64,000 bases of DNA, taken from contig QIBA01000029.1 in the NCBI GenBank assembly GCA_003225175.1, forward strand, positions 1-64,000, given 5' to 3'. The position numbers and the translations under genes are program-made. This stretch comes from Acidobacteriota bacterium (GTDB lineage: Bacteria > Acidobacteriota > Terriglobia > Terriglobales > Acidobacteriaceae). A model generated the notes under the pieces. The model worked only from the letters and a program-made list of their open reading frames with translations. It was not told where the DNA came from and did not search any database. This document shows positions 16,504 through 23,547 of this stretch, one piece after another; within the stretch, counting starts at the first letter, position 1; the number at the start of each line of letters is the position of its first letter.

Positions 16504-17589
16504 ATGCGGATACAAAGACGTCACAACATCTGTTTGACAGCACTTTTAGTACTCATTTTCGCGGCGGGTTGCGGCGATCCGGACAAGAATGGCGCGGCTC
16601 CCACCGATCCAGTAGCTCCCCCTACAGTCACGTCAGTTACGCCGCCAACCGGCTCTACGCTCATTTGTCCCAACACCGCAGTTGTCACTGCGACCTTCAG
16701 CAAGGCGATGAACCCTTCGACGATTAGCACTTCCACGTTTACTTTGAGTTCAAGCGCTGGCAGCGTGTCTGGGCAAGTTAGCTATGTTGTGGCTACCAGG
16801 ATTGCTACCTTCATACCCACGGCTGCTCTTACTGCAAGCACGACCTTTACGGCTACGATCACCACCGGAGCGGCTGACACATTTGGTAATCCACTGGCTG
16901 CCAATTTCGTGTGGACATTCACAACGTCGGCTCCTTGTCCTCCACCTCCAACGCCTCTGCCCGCGCCCTCGCCTTTAGGAGCGGCTTGTAATTTCGGAAT
17001 TCTGGGCGGCACTCCAGTGGTTAGTAGCGTTGGTCTCACGAAAGTTACAGGAGGAGATGTAGGGATATGGCCGGCGGCTTCGATCACTGGATTTCCGCCC
17101 GGCACAACCACCGGAGCATTTCACGCGGGCGATGCCGTGGCTATGGCCGCGCAAGGAGATTTGACCACCGCATACAACAACGCCGCAGCCGCTCCAGGAG
17201 GAGCAATCCTCCCGGCAGACATAGGCGGACTCACTCTCGCGCCTGGCGTTTACAAAACCACAAGCTCACAGCCATCACTCGGAATCACCGGGAATCTGAC
17301 TCTGTCTGGCGCGGCCAATGGCGTGTGGATATTCCAAGTAGTCTCCACGCTTACAACTGCCGCTGGGAATAGCCAAGTCATCATGGCCGGTGGCGGCCAG
17401 TCTAAGAACGTCTTCTGGCAGATCGGAAGTTCGGCCACGCTCGGAACCAACACGACGTTCTCAGGGAACATCATGGCTCTGGCCTCCATCACCGTGAACA
17501 CCGGAGCAACGCTGAATGGAAGAGCCCTGGCACGCAACGGCGCCGTCACATTGGACAGCAATCAAGTAAATGTCCCCACATGTCCATGA
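16504..17589 (+). CDS. Ice-binding-like (DUF3494) lipoprotein with Big_5 domain
   Basis: A 361-residue lipoprotein. Signal peptide with lipobox FAAGC at about residues 20-24. Next a bacterial Ig-like SbsA/Big_5 domain (PPTVTSVTPPTGSTLICPNT through DTFGNPLAANFVWTFTTSAP), a Pro-rich linker, and a C-terminal DUF3494 beta-helix starting at NFGILGGTPVVSSVGLTKVT, with the family's GDVGIWP, FHAGDAVA, LAPGVYKT and GRALARNGAVTLDSN marks. DUF3494 proteins bind ice or act as surface adhesins; which applies here cannot be told. The ATG at 16504 is chosen (GAAGAGG 5 nt upstream). It is followed by an OmpA-type gene 90 nt later. Confidence 0.88.
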   Translation: MRIQRRHNICLTALLVLIFAAGCGDPDKNGAAPTDPVAPPTVTSVTPPTGSTLICPNTAVVTATFSKAMNPSTISTSTFTLSSSAGSVSGQVSYVVATRIATFIPTAALTASTTFTATITTGAADTFGNPLAANFVWTFTTSAPCPPPPTPLPAPSPLGAACNFGILGGTPVVSSVGLTKVTGGDVGIWPAASITGFPPGTTTGAFHAGDAVAMAAQGDLTTAYNNAAAAPGGAILPADIGGLTLAPGVYKTTSSQPSLGITGNLTLSGAANGVWIFQVVSTLTTAAGNSQVIMAGGGQSKNVFWQIGSSATLGTNTTFSGNIMALASITVNTGATLNGRALARNGAVTLDSNQVNVPTCP

Positions 17590-17678
17590 GCATTCGGAGT
17601 GGACCAGCTTCGGTCTGGTCCACTCCAGCTCCGGCGAAGCACAACCTTTACGTTGATGAAATTCGGAGGAATATTCGC

Positions 17679-19466
17679 ATGTATTCGCAATCAAAGAGCG
17701 GTCTCGGTCGTCTTGTAGCGATGTTGCCGGCAATGATTATTTTCGGGTGCGCATTTGCCACGTTTGCCGTTGCCCAGGATCGCCCAGTTCCAAAATGGGA
17801 GCTTTATGGCGGATACTCCGTCTTTGATCCGGCAGCGGACGTGCATGGTCAACGTCCTGCAGCGTTGCTGCCCTTGAGCAGTCGGCTGGAAACGAATCCG
17901 AAAGGTGTTGGGCTTAGCGGGACTTACAATTTCAATCGCTGGCTTGGACTCACGATCGATGGAAGCAACCACTGGGGCAGCGGCGAAACTACATTCGCTA
18001 CCAGAATTGATGACACTCGCTTCGACAACATATCGTTAGGCCCAAAGTTCACTCTTCGTTCCCGTCATTTCTCTCCATTTCTGGAGGCATTAGCGGGCGA
18101 CCACCGTCTTGTGCCCGAAGCTTTTCATAGCGTCGATAAACTGGGCTTCATGGCCGGTGGCGGTCTGGACATCAATCTCTCCAGGCATATAGCGTGGCGA
18201 TTAATCCGCGCCGACTACGTATTCTCAACCTATCGATTTGCTCCAGGCGGAGTGCCAACGACCGATATCCGAGGCGTAAGGTTGCAGACCGGTCTCAACT
18301 TCATGTTTGGCGGCGGAGAACCTGCAATCGCCCCCAGCGCCGCTTGCTCGTTACAGCCGACTGAAGTCTTCGCCGGCGAACCTGTGACCGCGACCGCCAC
18401 CGGATCTAATTTCAATCCAAAGCGCACAGTCAAATACACCTGGAGTGGAACAGGGCTGAGAGTCGCGGGAACTGACGCCTCAACACAGATTGACACCATG
18501 GGCTTGCAGCCCGGGTCATACGCAGTGAATGCCAACTTGAGCGACGGAAGCAACGGTCTTGCATCATGCAGCGCCACGTTCACCGTGAAACAGCCTCGTC
18601 CTCCGTCGATTTCATGCATGGCAGATCCGGCTAGCGTGCAAAGCGGCGGGAGCTCGACTATCAAGTCGAACGCCAGCAGCCCAGATGGCCGCAGGTTGAC
18701 TTACAGCTACACCGCTAGCGCTGGTCAGATTTCCGGTACCGGTGAGACCGCTACCTTGACTACAGCAGGCGCACAATCAGGTCCTATCACGGTCACTTGC
18801 AATGTAAGTGATGATCGCAATCCGCCGCTCACGGCCTCGTCCACCACCACAGTGAACGTGGAAGCTCCGCCGCCTCCCCCTGCTCCTCCCGCTGAGGTCC
18901 AGCAGTTGGAAACCAGGCTTGCCCTCCATAGTATTTACTTTCAGACTGCTCGGCCCACGGTGCAAAATCCCACGGGCGGACTGCTCGCCAGTCAGGCGGA
19001 GATCCTGCAGACCCTCGCTGCGGACTTCAACAATTACCTGAAATACCGGCCCGATGCCCATCTGATACTCAGTGGCCATGCAGATCCGCGCGGCTCTGCG
19101 GAATACAACAAAGCCCTCACAGAGCGACGCGTGGAACGCACCAAGAATGCCCTCGTAGAGCATGGCGTTCCTCAAGATCACATTGAGACCCGGTCCATTG
19201 GCAAAGAGGAGCAATTGACTGCCGACCAGACAAGGGCGCTGATAGCGCAAGATCCGGACTTGACTGCGGCCGACAGACAACAAATGCTGAACAATCTGCC
19301 AGTGATGGTGCTGGCCAATAATCGGCGCGTTGACGTCAACTTGAGTACGACCGGACAACAATCCACTCGCCTCTACCCGTTTAACGCGAAAGATTTCCTG
19401 GCGCTGATCAATACCAAGGGTGTCGAAAAAAGACCGACGCCCAGGAAGAAAAGCAAGAAGCGATAA
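17679..19466 (+). CDS. OmpA-family outer membrane protein with Ig-like repeats
   Basis: A 595-residue protein. Signal peptide to about residue 30 (FAVAQD), then an eight-strand barrel (WELYGGYSVFDPAADVHGQR, LRSRHFSPFLEALAGD, LQTGLNFMFGGGE) to about 225. Two or three PKD/Ig-like repeats follow (ACSLQPTEVFAGEPVTATAT; ISCMADPASVQSGGSSTIKS). After a Pro-rich hinge an OmpA C-terminal domain (about 430-560) carries the peptidoglycan-binding marks LSGHADPRGSAEYNKALTER and R-R-V-E-R. Asp and Arg for diaminopimelate binding are present. The start at 17679 has GGAGGA 8 nt upstream. It would tether outer membrane to peptidoglycan. Confidence 0.88.
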   Translation: MYSQSKSGLGRLVAMLPAMIIFGCAFATFAVAQDRPVPKWELYGGYSVFDPAADVHGQRPAALLPLSSRLETNPKGVGLSGTYNFNRWLGLTIDGSNHWGSGETTFATRIDDTRFDNISLGPKFTLRSRHFSPFLEALAGDHRLVPEAFHSVDKLGFMAGGGLDINLSRHIAWRLIRADYVFSTYRFAPGGVPTTDIRGVRLQTGLNFMFGGGEPAIAPSAACSLQPTEVFAGEPVTATATGSNFNPKRTVKYTWSGTGLRVAGTDASTQIDTMGLQPGSYAVNANLSDGSNGLASCSATFTVKQPRPPSISCMADPASVQSGGSSTIKSNASSPDGRRLTYSYTASAGQISGTGETATLTTAGAQSGPITVTCNVSDDRNPPLTASSTTTVNVEAPPPPPAPPAEVQQLETRLALHSIYFQTARPTVQNPTGGLLASQAEILQTLAADFNNYLKYRPDAHLILSGHADPRGSAEYNKALTERRVERTKNALVEHGVPQDHIETRSIGKEEQLTADQTRALIAQDPDLTAADRQQMLNNLPVMVLANNRRVDVNLSTTGQQSTRLYPFNAKDFLALINTKGVEKRPTPRKKSKKR

Positions 19467-19848: not shown

Positions 19849-20511
19849 ATGAAACTCTTCACGAAATGTCTCATCGTGGTTTGCGTTCTCGCGGTCTCCT
19901 TATTTGTGTTGCCTGGCGCGTCGGCAGATGACTGGAATAAAAAGACTGTAGTCACATTCAGCGCGCCGGTCGAAGTTCCCGGCGTCGGCGCTCAGGTCCT
20001 GCCGGCGGGCACGTACGTGTTCAAGATTATGGATTCGCTGTCAGACCGCCACATTGTCCAGATCTTCAACGAGGACCAAACCCATGTTTACACCACCATC
20101 CTAGCGATTCCGAATTATCGTTTGCATGCAACCGACAAGACTGTCATGACATTTAAAGAGCGGGCGCAAGGCGAACCGGAAGCGATTCGGGCGTGGTTCT
20201 ATCCTGGTGCTCAGTCGGGTGAGGAATTCGTATATCCGAAGTCGAAGGCACTAGAGCTGGCGAAGATCGCCAATGAGCCTGTGCTTGAAACGCCTACTCC
20301 GATGGCAGACGTAGAAGCGCTCAAGACAGCACCGATCGAAGCCGTGAATCCAGCTGGAGAACCAGTTCCCGTTGCTGAGGTAGTTCAGGCTCCAGTGCAA
20401 ATAGCCAAGGTGGAAACCCTGCCGCAGACGGCGAGCTATATGCCGCTGCTGTTTTGCGCTGGGATGCTCTCGCTCGCCGCAGCCGGTCTGATCACCAAGT
20501 ACTCCTCATAG
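19849..20511 (+). CDS. Secreted protein with C-terminal LPQTA sorting-like signal
   Basis: A 220-residue protein. N-terminal signal peptide (LIVVCVLAVSLFVLPGASAD). The first 130 mature residues form a beta-rich domain (VTFSAPVEVPGVGAQVLPAG; FKIMDSLSDRHIVQIF) found in many secreted acidobacterial proteins. A Pro/Val/Glu-rich spacer (about 140-190) precedes LPQTA (191-195), a hydrophobic helix (LLFCAGMLSLAAAGLITK) and a short tail TKYSS. This LPxTx, helix, charged-tail layout is that of a sortase cell-wall sorting signal, and a class D sortase is encoded two genes downstream on the same strand. The tail is only weakly basic. Function unknown; anchoring is inferred. Confidence 0.8.
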   Translation: MKLFTKCLIVVCVLAVSLFVLPGASADDWNKKTVVTFSAPVEVPGVGAQVLPAGTYVFKIMDSLSDRHIVQIFNEDQTHVYTTILAIPNYRLHATDKTVMTFKERAQGEPEAIRAWFYPGAQSGEEFVYPKSKALELAKIANEPVLETPTPMADVEALKTAPIEAVNPAGEPVPVAEVVQAPVQIAKVETLPQTASYMPLLFCAGMLSLAAAGLITKYSS

Positions 20512-20638
20512 ATCGTTGGGATTTGCTTATATAGGCTGTACGTCTCCGGAAAACAAGCCGAAGCGCACAGCCGATATTTTGCCGCTATCGCGACTCCCAT
20601 TGGCAGTTAGAACGTTTCGCTTGAACGGAAAGTTAGTC

Positions 20639-21628
20639 ATGTTCATGATCCGTGAATGCGCGTCCTGCGTCCTCGCGATTATTTCTTTCGTAATACCCCT
20701 GATGCTTGTTAACGCCCAGCAGGTTACGCCATCACCACCCTCCGATACTGGTTATAGGATCAGAGTGAACGTTGATGAAGTCGTCTTGCACGCGACAGTG
20801 CGGAACCGTCATGGCGTTCCTGTGGCCGGTCTTAGCAAAGACAACTTCCAGATCTCCGAAGATAGAGTCCCGCAGGCTATCAAACATTTCAGTCATGAAG
20901 ACATTCCGGTCACAGCTGGACTAGTTATCGATAACAGCGGCAGCATGCGGCCGAAGCGTGCGGAAGTGATCGCCGCAGCGCTGGCATTTGCCGGCTCCAG
21001 CAACCCGCAGGACCAGATGTTTCTTGTCAACTTCAATGAGAACGTTTCTTTCGGCCTACCGCATGGCACCTTATTCACCGACCGGCCCGAACAACTAAAA
21101 ACTGCTATGGGCACGGTTATCGCGGACGGCGAGACCGCGTTGTACGATGCTGTGGCCGTCGCACTCGAACGCTTGAAGCAGGGAAATCGAGACAAGAAAG
21201 TGCTGATCGTTGTCAGCGATGGCGCCGACAATGCCAGTGTGCATACCAAAGCACAGATATTGCAGGCCGCAACTCAATCCGATGCGATCATTTATGCACT
21301 CGGAATTTATGAGCCTGACGACCCTGATAAAAATCCTCACGTCCTCAGTGAACTCGCAAAAGCCAGCGGCGGCGAGGCGTTCTTTCCGGATTCGTTACGC
21401 GAAGTGGTGCCGATTTGTGAACGGATCGCACGTGAGATTCGAAACCAGTACACCATTTCCTACCTTCCCACCAACCAAACACAGGACGGGACTTATCGCG
21501 CCATCGAGGTTCACGCCGCCTCTGCTAGTGGCGGCCACTTGCGCGTGACAACGCGCGCTGGCTATATAGCCCGCTCGAAGCCATCAGTCGCAACCGCTGG
21601 CGCAATCCAGCCGAAAACGCGGAATTAA
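20639..21628 (+). CDS. VWFA-related secreted protein (acidobacterial type)
   Basis: A 329-residue exported protein. Signal peptide to about residue 30 (LMLVNAQQ). A short beta segment (VVLHATVRNRHGVPVAGLSK) with the family's F-x-I-x-E-D precedes a von Willebrand type A domain. The MIDAS motif DNSGSM is intact; the later Thr (GETALYDAV) and Asp (VSDGADNAS) metal ligands are also visible. This matches the VWFA-related domain family that is expanded in Acidobacteria. Its own C-terminus lacks a sorting signal. It lies 127 nt after the LPQTA gene and its stop abuts the sortase ATG (TAAATG), so all three are probably one transcription unit. Confidence 0.85.
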   Translation: MFMIRECASCVLAIISFVIPLMLVNAQQVTPSPPSDTGYRIRVNVDEVVLHATVRNRHGVPVAGLSKDNFQISEDRVPQAIKHFSHEDIPVTAGLVIDNSGSMRPKRAEVIAAALAFAGSSNPQDQMFLVNFNENVSFGLPHGTLFTDRPEQLKTAMGTVIADGETALYDAVAVALERLKQGNRDKKVLIVVSDGADNASVHTKAQILQAATQSDAIIYALGIYEPDDPDKNPHVLSELAKASGGEAFFPDSLREVVPICERIAREIRNQYTISYLPTNQTQDGTYRAIEVHAASASGGHLRVTTRAGYIARSKPSVATAGAIQPKTRN

Positions 21629-22270
21629 ATGATTCCGTTGGTTCCTCGTGCGAAGTTTCCGGCCTTGCAGCACAGCCGTTGGCTCTTTCTTGCACTGGCG
21701 ATCGCATCGTTGGGATACGTTGCCTTTTCGCTGGTGGATGCGCAGTCCTTTCAGGCGTACGAAAATTGGCGATTGAATCAAGCAGCGAAGAATGCGCGCC
21801 AACCATCAGCGCAAGCAGAGTCGAAAGTTGTGTCCGCATCTTTATCGCTGCGCGACCACAGCCAGCGCAAAACGCTTGCTCTCGGCTCCGTGCTTGGACG
21901 CGTCGAGATCGGCAGAATCGGCGTTGCCGTGATCATCGTGGAAGGTACCAGCGGAAAAACACTGCGTCGCGCAGTTGGGCATGTTCCCGGAACGGCACTG
22001 CCCGGTGAGCCAGGGAACGTCGCGATCACCGGACACCGTGACACGTTCTTCAGAGCGCTGCGCAATATCCGCGAGGACGATGAAATTACGTTAATGACGT
22101 TTAACGGATCGTATCGCTATCGAGTCGATTCGATGAAGGTCGTTGAAGCGGAAGATACACAAGTGCTGAATGATTCAGACGAATCGATCCTAACCCTGGT
22201 CACCTGCTATCCCTTCTATTTCGTGGGTCCTGCGCCAAAGAGATTCATCGTGCGCGCGCATCGAATTTGA
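21629..22270 (+). CDS. Class D sortase
   Basis: A 213-residue transpeptidase that cleaves LPxTx-type signals and joins the substrate to a nucleophile. A single N-terminal membrane helix (about 17-36) is followed by a stalk and a sortase barrel. The catalytic set is visible: His136 in AITGHRDTFF, Cys193 in TLVTCYPFYF, and Arg205 in APKRFIVRA. The TLVTCYPF context and short length fit class D. In Gram-positives class D enzymes prefer LPNTA-like motifs, close to the LPQTA of the protein encoded at 19849. What the nucleophile would be in a diderm cell is unknown. Start abuts the VWFA gene stop. Confidence 0.9.
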   Translation: MIPLVPRAKFPALQHSRWLFLALAIASLGYVAFSLVDAQSFQAYENWRLNQAAKNARQPSAQAESKVVSASLSLRDHSQRKTLALGSVLGRVEIGRIGVAVIIVEGTSGKTLRRAVGHVPGTALPGEPGNVAITGHRDTFFRALRNIREDDEITLMTFNGSYRYRVDSMKVVEAEDTQVLNDSDESILTLVTCYPFYFVGPAPKRFIVRAHRI

Positions 22271-22860: not shown

Positions 22861-23547
22861 ATGAAGAAACTCTTGTTGTTCGCAGTAGTGTTTGGTGTCA
22901 CCCACTTATCATGGGCCGGGACAGCCCACAAAGATGCCGTCGATCGAATGGACAACGCAGCCCAGGTGCTGCATGAGATTCTCGGCGCTCCCGATCAGGG
23001 AATTCCGGAAGAAGTTCTCGAAGGTGCCCGTTGTGTCGCGGTTGTTCCGCATATGCTCAAGGGCGGCTTTATCATCGGCGCGAAAGAAGGCAAAGGAGTA
23101 GCGACTTGTCGCACTGCTCATGGCTGGAGCGCACCCGCATTTTTCAGTGTCGGCGGTGGCAGCTTTGGGGCTCAGATTGGCGTGGAATCCGTGGACTTGG
23201 TGATGATCCTTAACGAAAAAGGCATGCAGCGCCTGATTGCCAGCAAGTTCGAAATCGGCGGCGATGCCTCAGCGGCAGCCGGTCCGGTTGGGCGTCACGC
23301 GTCCGCCAACACCGACTGGAAGCTGGATACTGAGATCCTTACCTATTCTCGCGCTAAAGGAGCCTTCGCCGGAGCAACACTGGAGGGAGCATCCGTGAGG
23401 CGCGACGACGACTCTACTCGTGCCATTTACGGAAGCAAGGCGAATACGCAGTCGGTACTTGAAGGTCGAGTGAAAGTCCCCAACTCGGCTCACACCTTCC
23501 TCAATGCTGTGGGCGGAGCACAAGCCGAAGCCAAGAGCAAGTCCTGA
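22861..23547 (+). CDS. SYLF-domain lipid-binding protein
   Basis: A 228-residue exported protein (signal peptide MKKLLLFAVVFGVTHLSWAG). A SYLF/Ysc84 domain occupies about residues 60-215: GARCVAVVPHMLKGGFIIGA, GWSAPAFFSVGGGSFGAQIG, VDLVMILNEKGMQRLIASKF, and SRAKGAFAGATLEGASVRRD. The domain binds phosphoinositides in eukaryotes; in bacteria its role is not known, although envelope stress functions have been suggested. GGAGG lies about 8 nt before the ATG. Confidence 0.9.
   Translation: MKKLLLFAVVFGVTHLSWAGTAHKDAVDRMDNAAQVLHEILGAPDQGIPEEVLEGARCVAVVPHMLKGGFIIGAKEGKGVATCRTAHGWSAPAFFSVGGGSFGAQIGVESVDLVMILNEKGMQRLIASKFEIGGDASAAAGPVGRHASANTDWKLDTEILTYSRAKGAFAGATLEGASVRRDDDSTRAIYGSKANTQSVLEGRVKVPNSAHTFLNAVGGAQAEAKSKS

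Follow-up and report, generated by a model that had tools for sequence, protein, structure and literature searches.

Textbook accounts usually associate the anchoring of proteins by sortases with monoderm bacteria that have a thick wall. A 2006 paper on bacterial evolution treated it as a defining Gram-positive trait, the only exceptions known to it being a small proteobacterial set and one Chloroflexus homologue (PMC1586193). In the literature searched, the sole mention of acidobacterial sortases was a tally of six for Solibacter usitatus (PMC3174227), and no description of acidobacterial sortase-substrate cassettes was found; such cassettes appear to be undescribed, and the kind of system to which they belong, the dedicated sortase system, is already known.

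BaSrtC of B. anthracis (2LN7; substrates BasH and BasI, LPNTA) cuts between the Thr and Ala of its motif and uses the side-chain amine of meso-DAP as acceptor (PMC3297441). It is the nearest solved sequence relative of the sortase analysed here, and the two systems have in common an LPxTA motif and a meso-DAP wall, indicated in our case by a motif in the genome. However, the host of BaSrtC is a monoderm endospore former, whereas the present system belongs to a diderm and has one substrate gene per sortase, a substrate domain without known family, and a VWA partner. CpSrtD of C. perfringens (4D70), our top Foldseek match, also has an operonic anchor protein with LPQT; in the part of its published account consulted, this Gram-positive enzyme prefers LPQTGS, found in the operonic neighbour, and no VWA partner is reported there (PMC4498605). 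The proteobacterial class GN systems (TIGR03784/TIGR03788) likewise consist of one sortase and one adjacent target in a diderm, but the VWA protein described below differs in having neither a VIT domain nor a tail, and the GN pairs of the family (L135 and L138) branch off deeply as a clade of their own, together with the L136 sortase. With respect to NF058671/NF058670, our sortase passes the NF058671 cut-off, whereas the tail reads LPQTASYM and differs from LPxTATN.

Gene layout, sortase and substrate tail

The window, that is, the whole stretch of 64,000 nucleotides analysed, corresponds to contig C29 of a 5.73 Mb genome (99% complete). An earlier sequence-only reading had proposed a three-gene arrangement in which a VWA gene lies between a substrate gene and a sortase gene and abuts the latter. 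The ORF coordinates bear this out (Table 1), with the sortase start codon directly following the VWA stop codon (21628/21629). Promoter and terminator scans gave signals no better than shuffled sequence.

Table 1 Coordinates of the cassette, its neighbours and related loci. Plain numbers are positions in the window; other locations carry their contig or locus label.
Feature	Location	Strand	Details
Candidate substrate precursor, 220 aa	19849..20511	+	Sec signal peptide at about 1-26; beta-rich domain of ~150 aa; variable spacer of Pro/Val/Ala; sorting tail
LPQTA motif, substrate residues 191-195	20419..20433	+	
Hydrophobic helix and short Lys-containing tail of substrate	20434..20508	+	SYMPLLFCAGMLSLAAAGLITKYSS
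VWA protein	20639..21628	+	TIGR03436 acidobact_VWFA; signal peptide; MIDAS-like DNSGS
Class D-like sortase, 213 aa	21629..22270	+	N-terminal membrane helix within residues 11-56; H136, C193 (TLVTC), R205
Secreted Big_5 and ice-binding-like (PF11999) protein	16507-17589		Upstream of cassette
OmpA-family protein	17580-19466		Beta-barrel, PKD/Ig-like repeats, OmpA C-terminal domain
SYLF/Ysc84-domain protein	22861-23547		Downstream of cassette
Genome pair, type A	Window		LPQTA protein upstream of sortase
Genome pair, type B	C33 (L063:7359-8451)		LPAGS protein directly upstream of sortase
Genome pair, type C	C34 (L064:7309-8831)		LPKTG protein directly downstream of sortase
Further tailed secreted proteins of the genome	L147:886-1590, L149:1498-2364		LPQTA, LPQTS
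Type C-clade sortases followed by DUF4136-like protein	L130:3852-5135, L133:3770-5091		
ORF of ~600 aa between substrate and VWA/sortase	L233:6751-8565		Malic enzyme (PF00390+PF03949)

The residues named as catalytic in the sequence-only reading (His136, Cys193 and Arg205) were exact, and its class D assignment is supported in the form of a class D-like sortase by triad and fold. The protein matched Pfam Sortase with E=6.7e-32, the His, Cys and Arg were invariant in 28/28 aligned sortases, and the TLVTCYP motif was intact. The best-scoring models were those of class D: the LPxTATN-specific model NF058671 (SrtD exception model) was passed with 152.7 bits (curated cut-off 140), and the general NCBI class D model NF033746 gave 134.4 bits, below its cut-off of 165. 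All 28 aligned relatives matched both models at E<=1e-15. The class C (pilin-polymerising) model and the class GN model TIGR03784 scored 90 and 98.8 bits, below cut-offs of 160 and 158.25, respectively. The structural model (pLDDT 87) featured a sortase barrel and a single helix of membrane-spanning length at the N-terminus. Foldseek ranked C. perfringens SrtD first (4d70; E 1.3e-13, TM-score 0.75 over target), with class C structures close behind, and the best sequence matches were 2ln7 (BaSrtC; 1.5e-19) and 4d70.

The predicted substrate ends in the tail KVETLPQTASYMPLLFCAGMLSLAAAGLITKYSS, in which a spacer leads to LPQTA, followed by a hydrophobic helix and TKYSS. A single Lys makes for only a weak positive charge behind the helix. 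The LPxT[A/G] pattern by itself is near chance, with 797 DNA matches in the genome vs 715 for the reversed control. When a tail profile was built without the window's own sequence, the window tail was the sole significant match in the window (E=2.1e-7, genome-scaled). PF00746 (LPXTG signal) did not match this tail in a whole-genome search, although the motif/helix/tail architecture is present; it matched 5 of 23 substrate homologues, and TIGR01167 matched 2. NF058670 likewise gave no match to the window tail, which does not read LPxTATN, and weakly matched two relatives of the substrate. The domain preceding the spacer had no Pfam or NCBIfam match; its model was beta-rich, with pLDDT mostly 76-95 over residues 31-180, and yielded no confident fold match (best Foldseek E 0.19; best VIA-align Z 3.9, mostly to hotdog-type proteins), a result that does not by itself indicate a new fold.

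The VWA protein scored 193 bits against TIGR03436 (cut-off 81). Its start is probably the ATG at 20639 rather than the in-frame TTG at 20516, because the signal peptide fits the former and a shorter orthologue exists in L107. No sorting tail and no VIT domain were found in it, and it reached 22.8 against the VIT/VWA target model TIGR03788 (cut-off 551.65). A class GN, VIT/VWA reading of the window system was rejected, with both sortase and VWA far under the profile cut-offs. The likening to proteobacterial VIT/VWA targets made from the sequence alone does not hold. True GN systems occur separately in the same family, and the VWA protein is not a sorted substrate but probably a partner.

Among the flanking genes, the OmpA-family protein is near the cassette in few relatives and the SYLF/Ysc84-domain protein in 16 of the 80 named loci introduced below. 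The OmpA, ice-binding and SYLF neighbours were rejected as cassette members, recurring at few loci. Across loci, only substrate, VWA and sortase recur.

Conservation and co-occurrence of sortase and tail

Using a nine-sequence substrate alignment (A4), 80 named acidobacterial loci were independently retrieved, of which about 7 appear to overlap genomes of the family set. All but one of these relatives, which is labelled Planctomycetota, have records as MAGs of Acidobacteria (Terriglobia: Acidobacteriales, Bryobacterales, Solibacter-like), and the nearest is MAG gp1 AA112 (99% identity). The LPQTA-type motif had been open to dismissal had it been lost from orthologues; an LPxT[A/G/S] tail is kept in 78/80 loci, and the remaining two run off the contig end. 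P-x-T is also kept in all 23 family loci of the 19849 type (type A). In a 103-sequence alignment, Pro192 and Thr194 are present in 101/101 rows reaching the tail, whereas the X residue varies (A, K, Q, H, S and others), as does the spacer in length and sequence.

A same-strand sortase lies downstream of the substrate gene in 63 of the 71 named loci with room (at least 2.5 kb downstream, or a sortase found); the other eight are tailed and have no sortase nearby. Each of the 23 type A sortases adjoins a 19849 homologue, so that an adjacent single target gene, the hallmark of a dedicated system, was found in 23/23 loci. Short paralogues (~160 aa) stop before the spacer and are tail-less. The substrate gene decays where the A-type sortase is absent, as observed in two cases only: in G011, a tailed homologue is split by an in-frame TGA and no A-type sortase was found, and in G110 (82% complete), the homologue retains a membrane helix and lacks LPxT, and the genome yielded no sortase. 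Bryobacterales-type loci carry a ~600-aa ORF between substrate and VWA/sortase (L233 and, similarly, L208, L219, L226, L239 and L250), which in L233 is a malic enzyme.

In a phylum sample of 297 genomes, sortase and tail occurred together in 39, the tail alone in none, the sortase alone in 20, and neither in 238 (Fisher p=2.8e-34, a value that takes no account of shared ancestry). The corresponding numbers in a family sample of 150 genomes were 54, 4, 3 and 89; this figure is partly circular because the profile used to detect tails derives from loci of this same family, and the phylum figure is nearly free of such circularity. Outside genomes G000 and G050, 41 of 53 tails lie within 4 kb of a sortase. 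Sortases occurring without a substrate, which the sequence-only reading had named as evidence against pairing, proved to be a minority: 10 of 77 family sortases lack an adjacent substrate, and at phylum level 20 of 59 sortase-bearing genomes have no profile-detectable tail, some of which may carry tails missed by the profile. Judged by sequence, the pairing of sortase and substrate is well supported, and motif conservation, linkage and co-occurrence together argue for the LPQTA protein as the predicted substrate. Its recurrence across Acidobacteriota, a little-studied phylum, suggests that its members bolt selected proteins to the cell wall.

Proposed anchoring reaction and alternatives

The window genome encodes LptD, so the host is expected to be diderm; with the named relatives, this agrees with the acidobacterial diderm host assumed from the sequence. 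Its MurE carries a DNPR motif, which we take to mark meso-DAP-adding enzymes. We consider that the 19849 protein would be exported by Sec and then retained in the inner membrane via its C-terminal helix. The inner-membrane sortase, with its catalytic domain in the periplasm, would cut between the Thr and Ala of LPQTA through Cys193, and the Thr carboxyl would be transferred to an amine, most likely the meso-DAP side-chain amine in lipid II or nascent peptidoglycan. This cut and this transfer appear the most likely because BaSrtC and CpSrtD are the nearest relatives. Cleavage at this position by the window sortase is very likely, and meso-DAP is, by analogy, quite a likely acceptor. The acceptor had seemed non-obvious in the sequence-only reading and would now be less mysterious, given that BaSrtC uses meso-DAP (PMC3297441) and that the genome has a MurE with DNPR. 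The domain would thereby be bound covalently to the thin wall that underlies the outer membrane. We infer the periplasmic face of this wall as its default place, in preference to the surface attachment envisaged in the sequence-only reading, and the VWA protein, co-encoded in most cassettes, would probably bind the anchored domain or its ligand. As a whole, a dedicated three-gene cassette whose sortase cuts LPQTA after Thr and joins the protein to meso-DAP peptidoglycan is, in our judgement, a fairly likely explanation.

The same cut could instead pass the product to an outer-membrane glycolipid, a polysaccharide amine or water, leaving the protein surface-displayed or released. The exosortase and rhombosortase systems of diderms share the arrangement of motif, helix and basic tail with no known wall acceptor (PMC3237569), and the conserved cassette encodes no wall-acceptor component. 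Such an outcome is nonetheless unlikely: the closest relatives of characterised activity are transpeptidases of class D, including one shown to use meso-DAP, and the window sortase retains the catalytic Arg and TLVTCYP.

The position of the VWA gene, between the pair in 16 of 23 family type A loci, and the presence of a homologue in 63 of 80 named loci would suit a sortase that joins the 19849 protein to VWA or another protein as a covalent two-protein complex. Seven type A loci, however, have an otherwise intact pair and no VWA, so VWA cannot be the general acceptor, and no conserved acceptor motif was identified; we rate this complex as very unlikely.

A pilin-like self-polymer through a VYPK lysine is suggestive but disfavoured on sequence grounds, and is given little credence. 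Here F-V-Y-P-K (residues 127-131) would act like the VYPK(N) motif of pilins: its Lys would attack the acyl-enzyme formed with the LPQT of the following subunit. The motif is near-invariant, with Lys in 78/80 named orthologues and in 97/103 tailed homologues vs 3/7 tail-less ones. Yet Arg, Gln or Asn replaces this Lys beside an intact sortase (L093, L110, L071, L126), and the F-x-Y core also occurs in tail-less paralogues, which makes the motif mainly structural. In addition, the fold searches gave no pilin-like match, each cassette has a single candidate subunit, and the sortase scored below the class C cut-off.

That the tail is merely a membrane anchor, for which the C-terminal helix alone would do, and that the sortase is adjacent by accident is hardly credible in view of the invariant Pro/Thr, the phylum-wide co-occurrence and the linkage.

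Sortase types in the genome and family

The window cassette does not stand alone: its genome holds three such pairs, and the family at least four types. The genome has three sortases (Pfam Sortase), each beside a tailed secreted protein (Table 1). A 35-position tail profile returned exactly five clear tails, the next match having E above 1, and two of the five are unlinked (C59, Ser/Thr/Asn-rich, E 6.6e-12; C71, E 4.1e-6). With five tails, three sortases and two tails unlinked, a relation of one sortase to one target is seen at the level of the cassette but not established for the genome as a whole. The tailed proteins at L147 and L149 have no sortase within the stretch examined.

Sortases were found in 57 of the 150 family genomes. 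Within ~9 kb around each of the 77 family sortases, an adjacent tailed protein was observed at 66, and a 67th (L090) lies at a contig start. Substrate families defined with tails removed (type B was partly grouped by tails) comprised A with 23 loci, D with 14, B with about 16, C with 9, and GN (VIT/VWA) with 2. When substrate labels were mapped onto a maximum-likelihood tree of these 77 sortases, 14 changes sufficed, vs a mean of 46 for shuffled labels (0/200 as low). A single branch separates all type A sortases from the rest (89/87; 93% of bootstrap trees), with fine placement inside A unsure because two long branches meet there. The C-type sortases form one group that also takes in a few sortases with a different substrate or none. 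Type B is nested in D, and GN is far apart. The family has four class D-like types, with sortase clades largely following substrates, plus genuine class GN/VIT-VWA systems. The latter were observed at L135 and L138, with VIT/VWA targets, and in the sortase of L136; the L135 and L138 pairs pass the GN models. At L130 and L133, the gene directly after the type C-clade sortase encodes a DUF4136-like protein (supported by a Pfam match for L130), and neither locus has a tailed protein nearby.

In most of the 16 type B loci, whose substrates are small and Asn/Ser-rich, the motif-Thr position is occupied by Gly, Ala or Ser (LPAGS, LPVAG, LPAAS, LPPAS, LPEGG). The tail helix, LPLLSVIGFGxLxGGxxSAxRTR, is unusually conserved, and the type B sortases keep His, Cys and Arg. 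We know of no other sortase specificity with Gly, Ala or Ser in place of the motif Thr; if type B tails are cut at the same place, the specificity would be new. It is possible, and we put it forward tentatively, that diderm Acidobacteriota possess several orthogonal class D-like sortases, each with its own substrates and motifs, among which type B has swapped Thr for Gly, Ala or Ser.

The recurrence of these cassettes in a major outer-membrane soil phylum suggests that sortase machinery belongs naturally beneath an outer membrane. The cassettes open a direct way of asking what acidobacteria attach to the wall, and types A, B, C and D offer naturally occurring series of sortases that differ in specificity, both in single genomes and in families.
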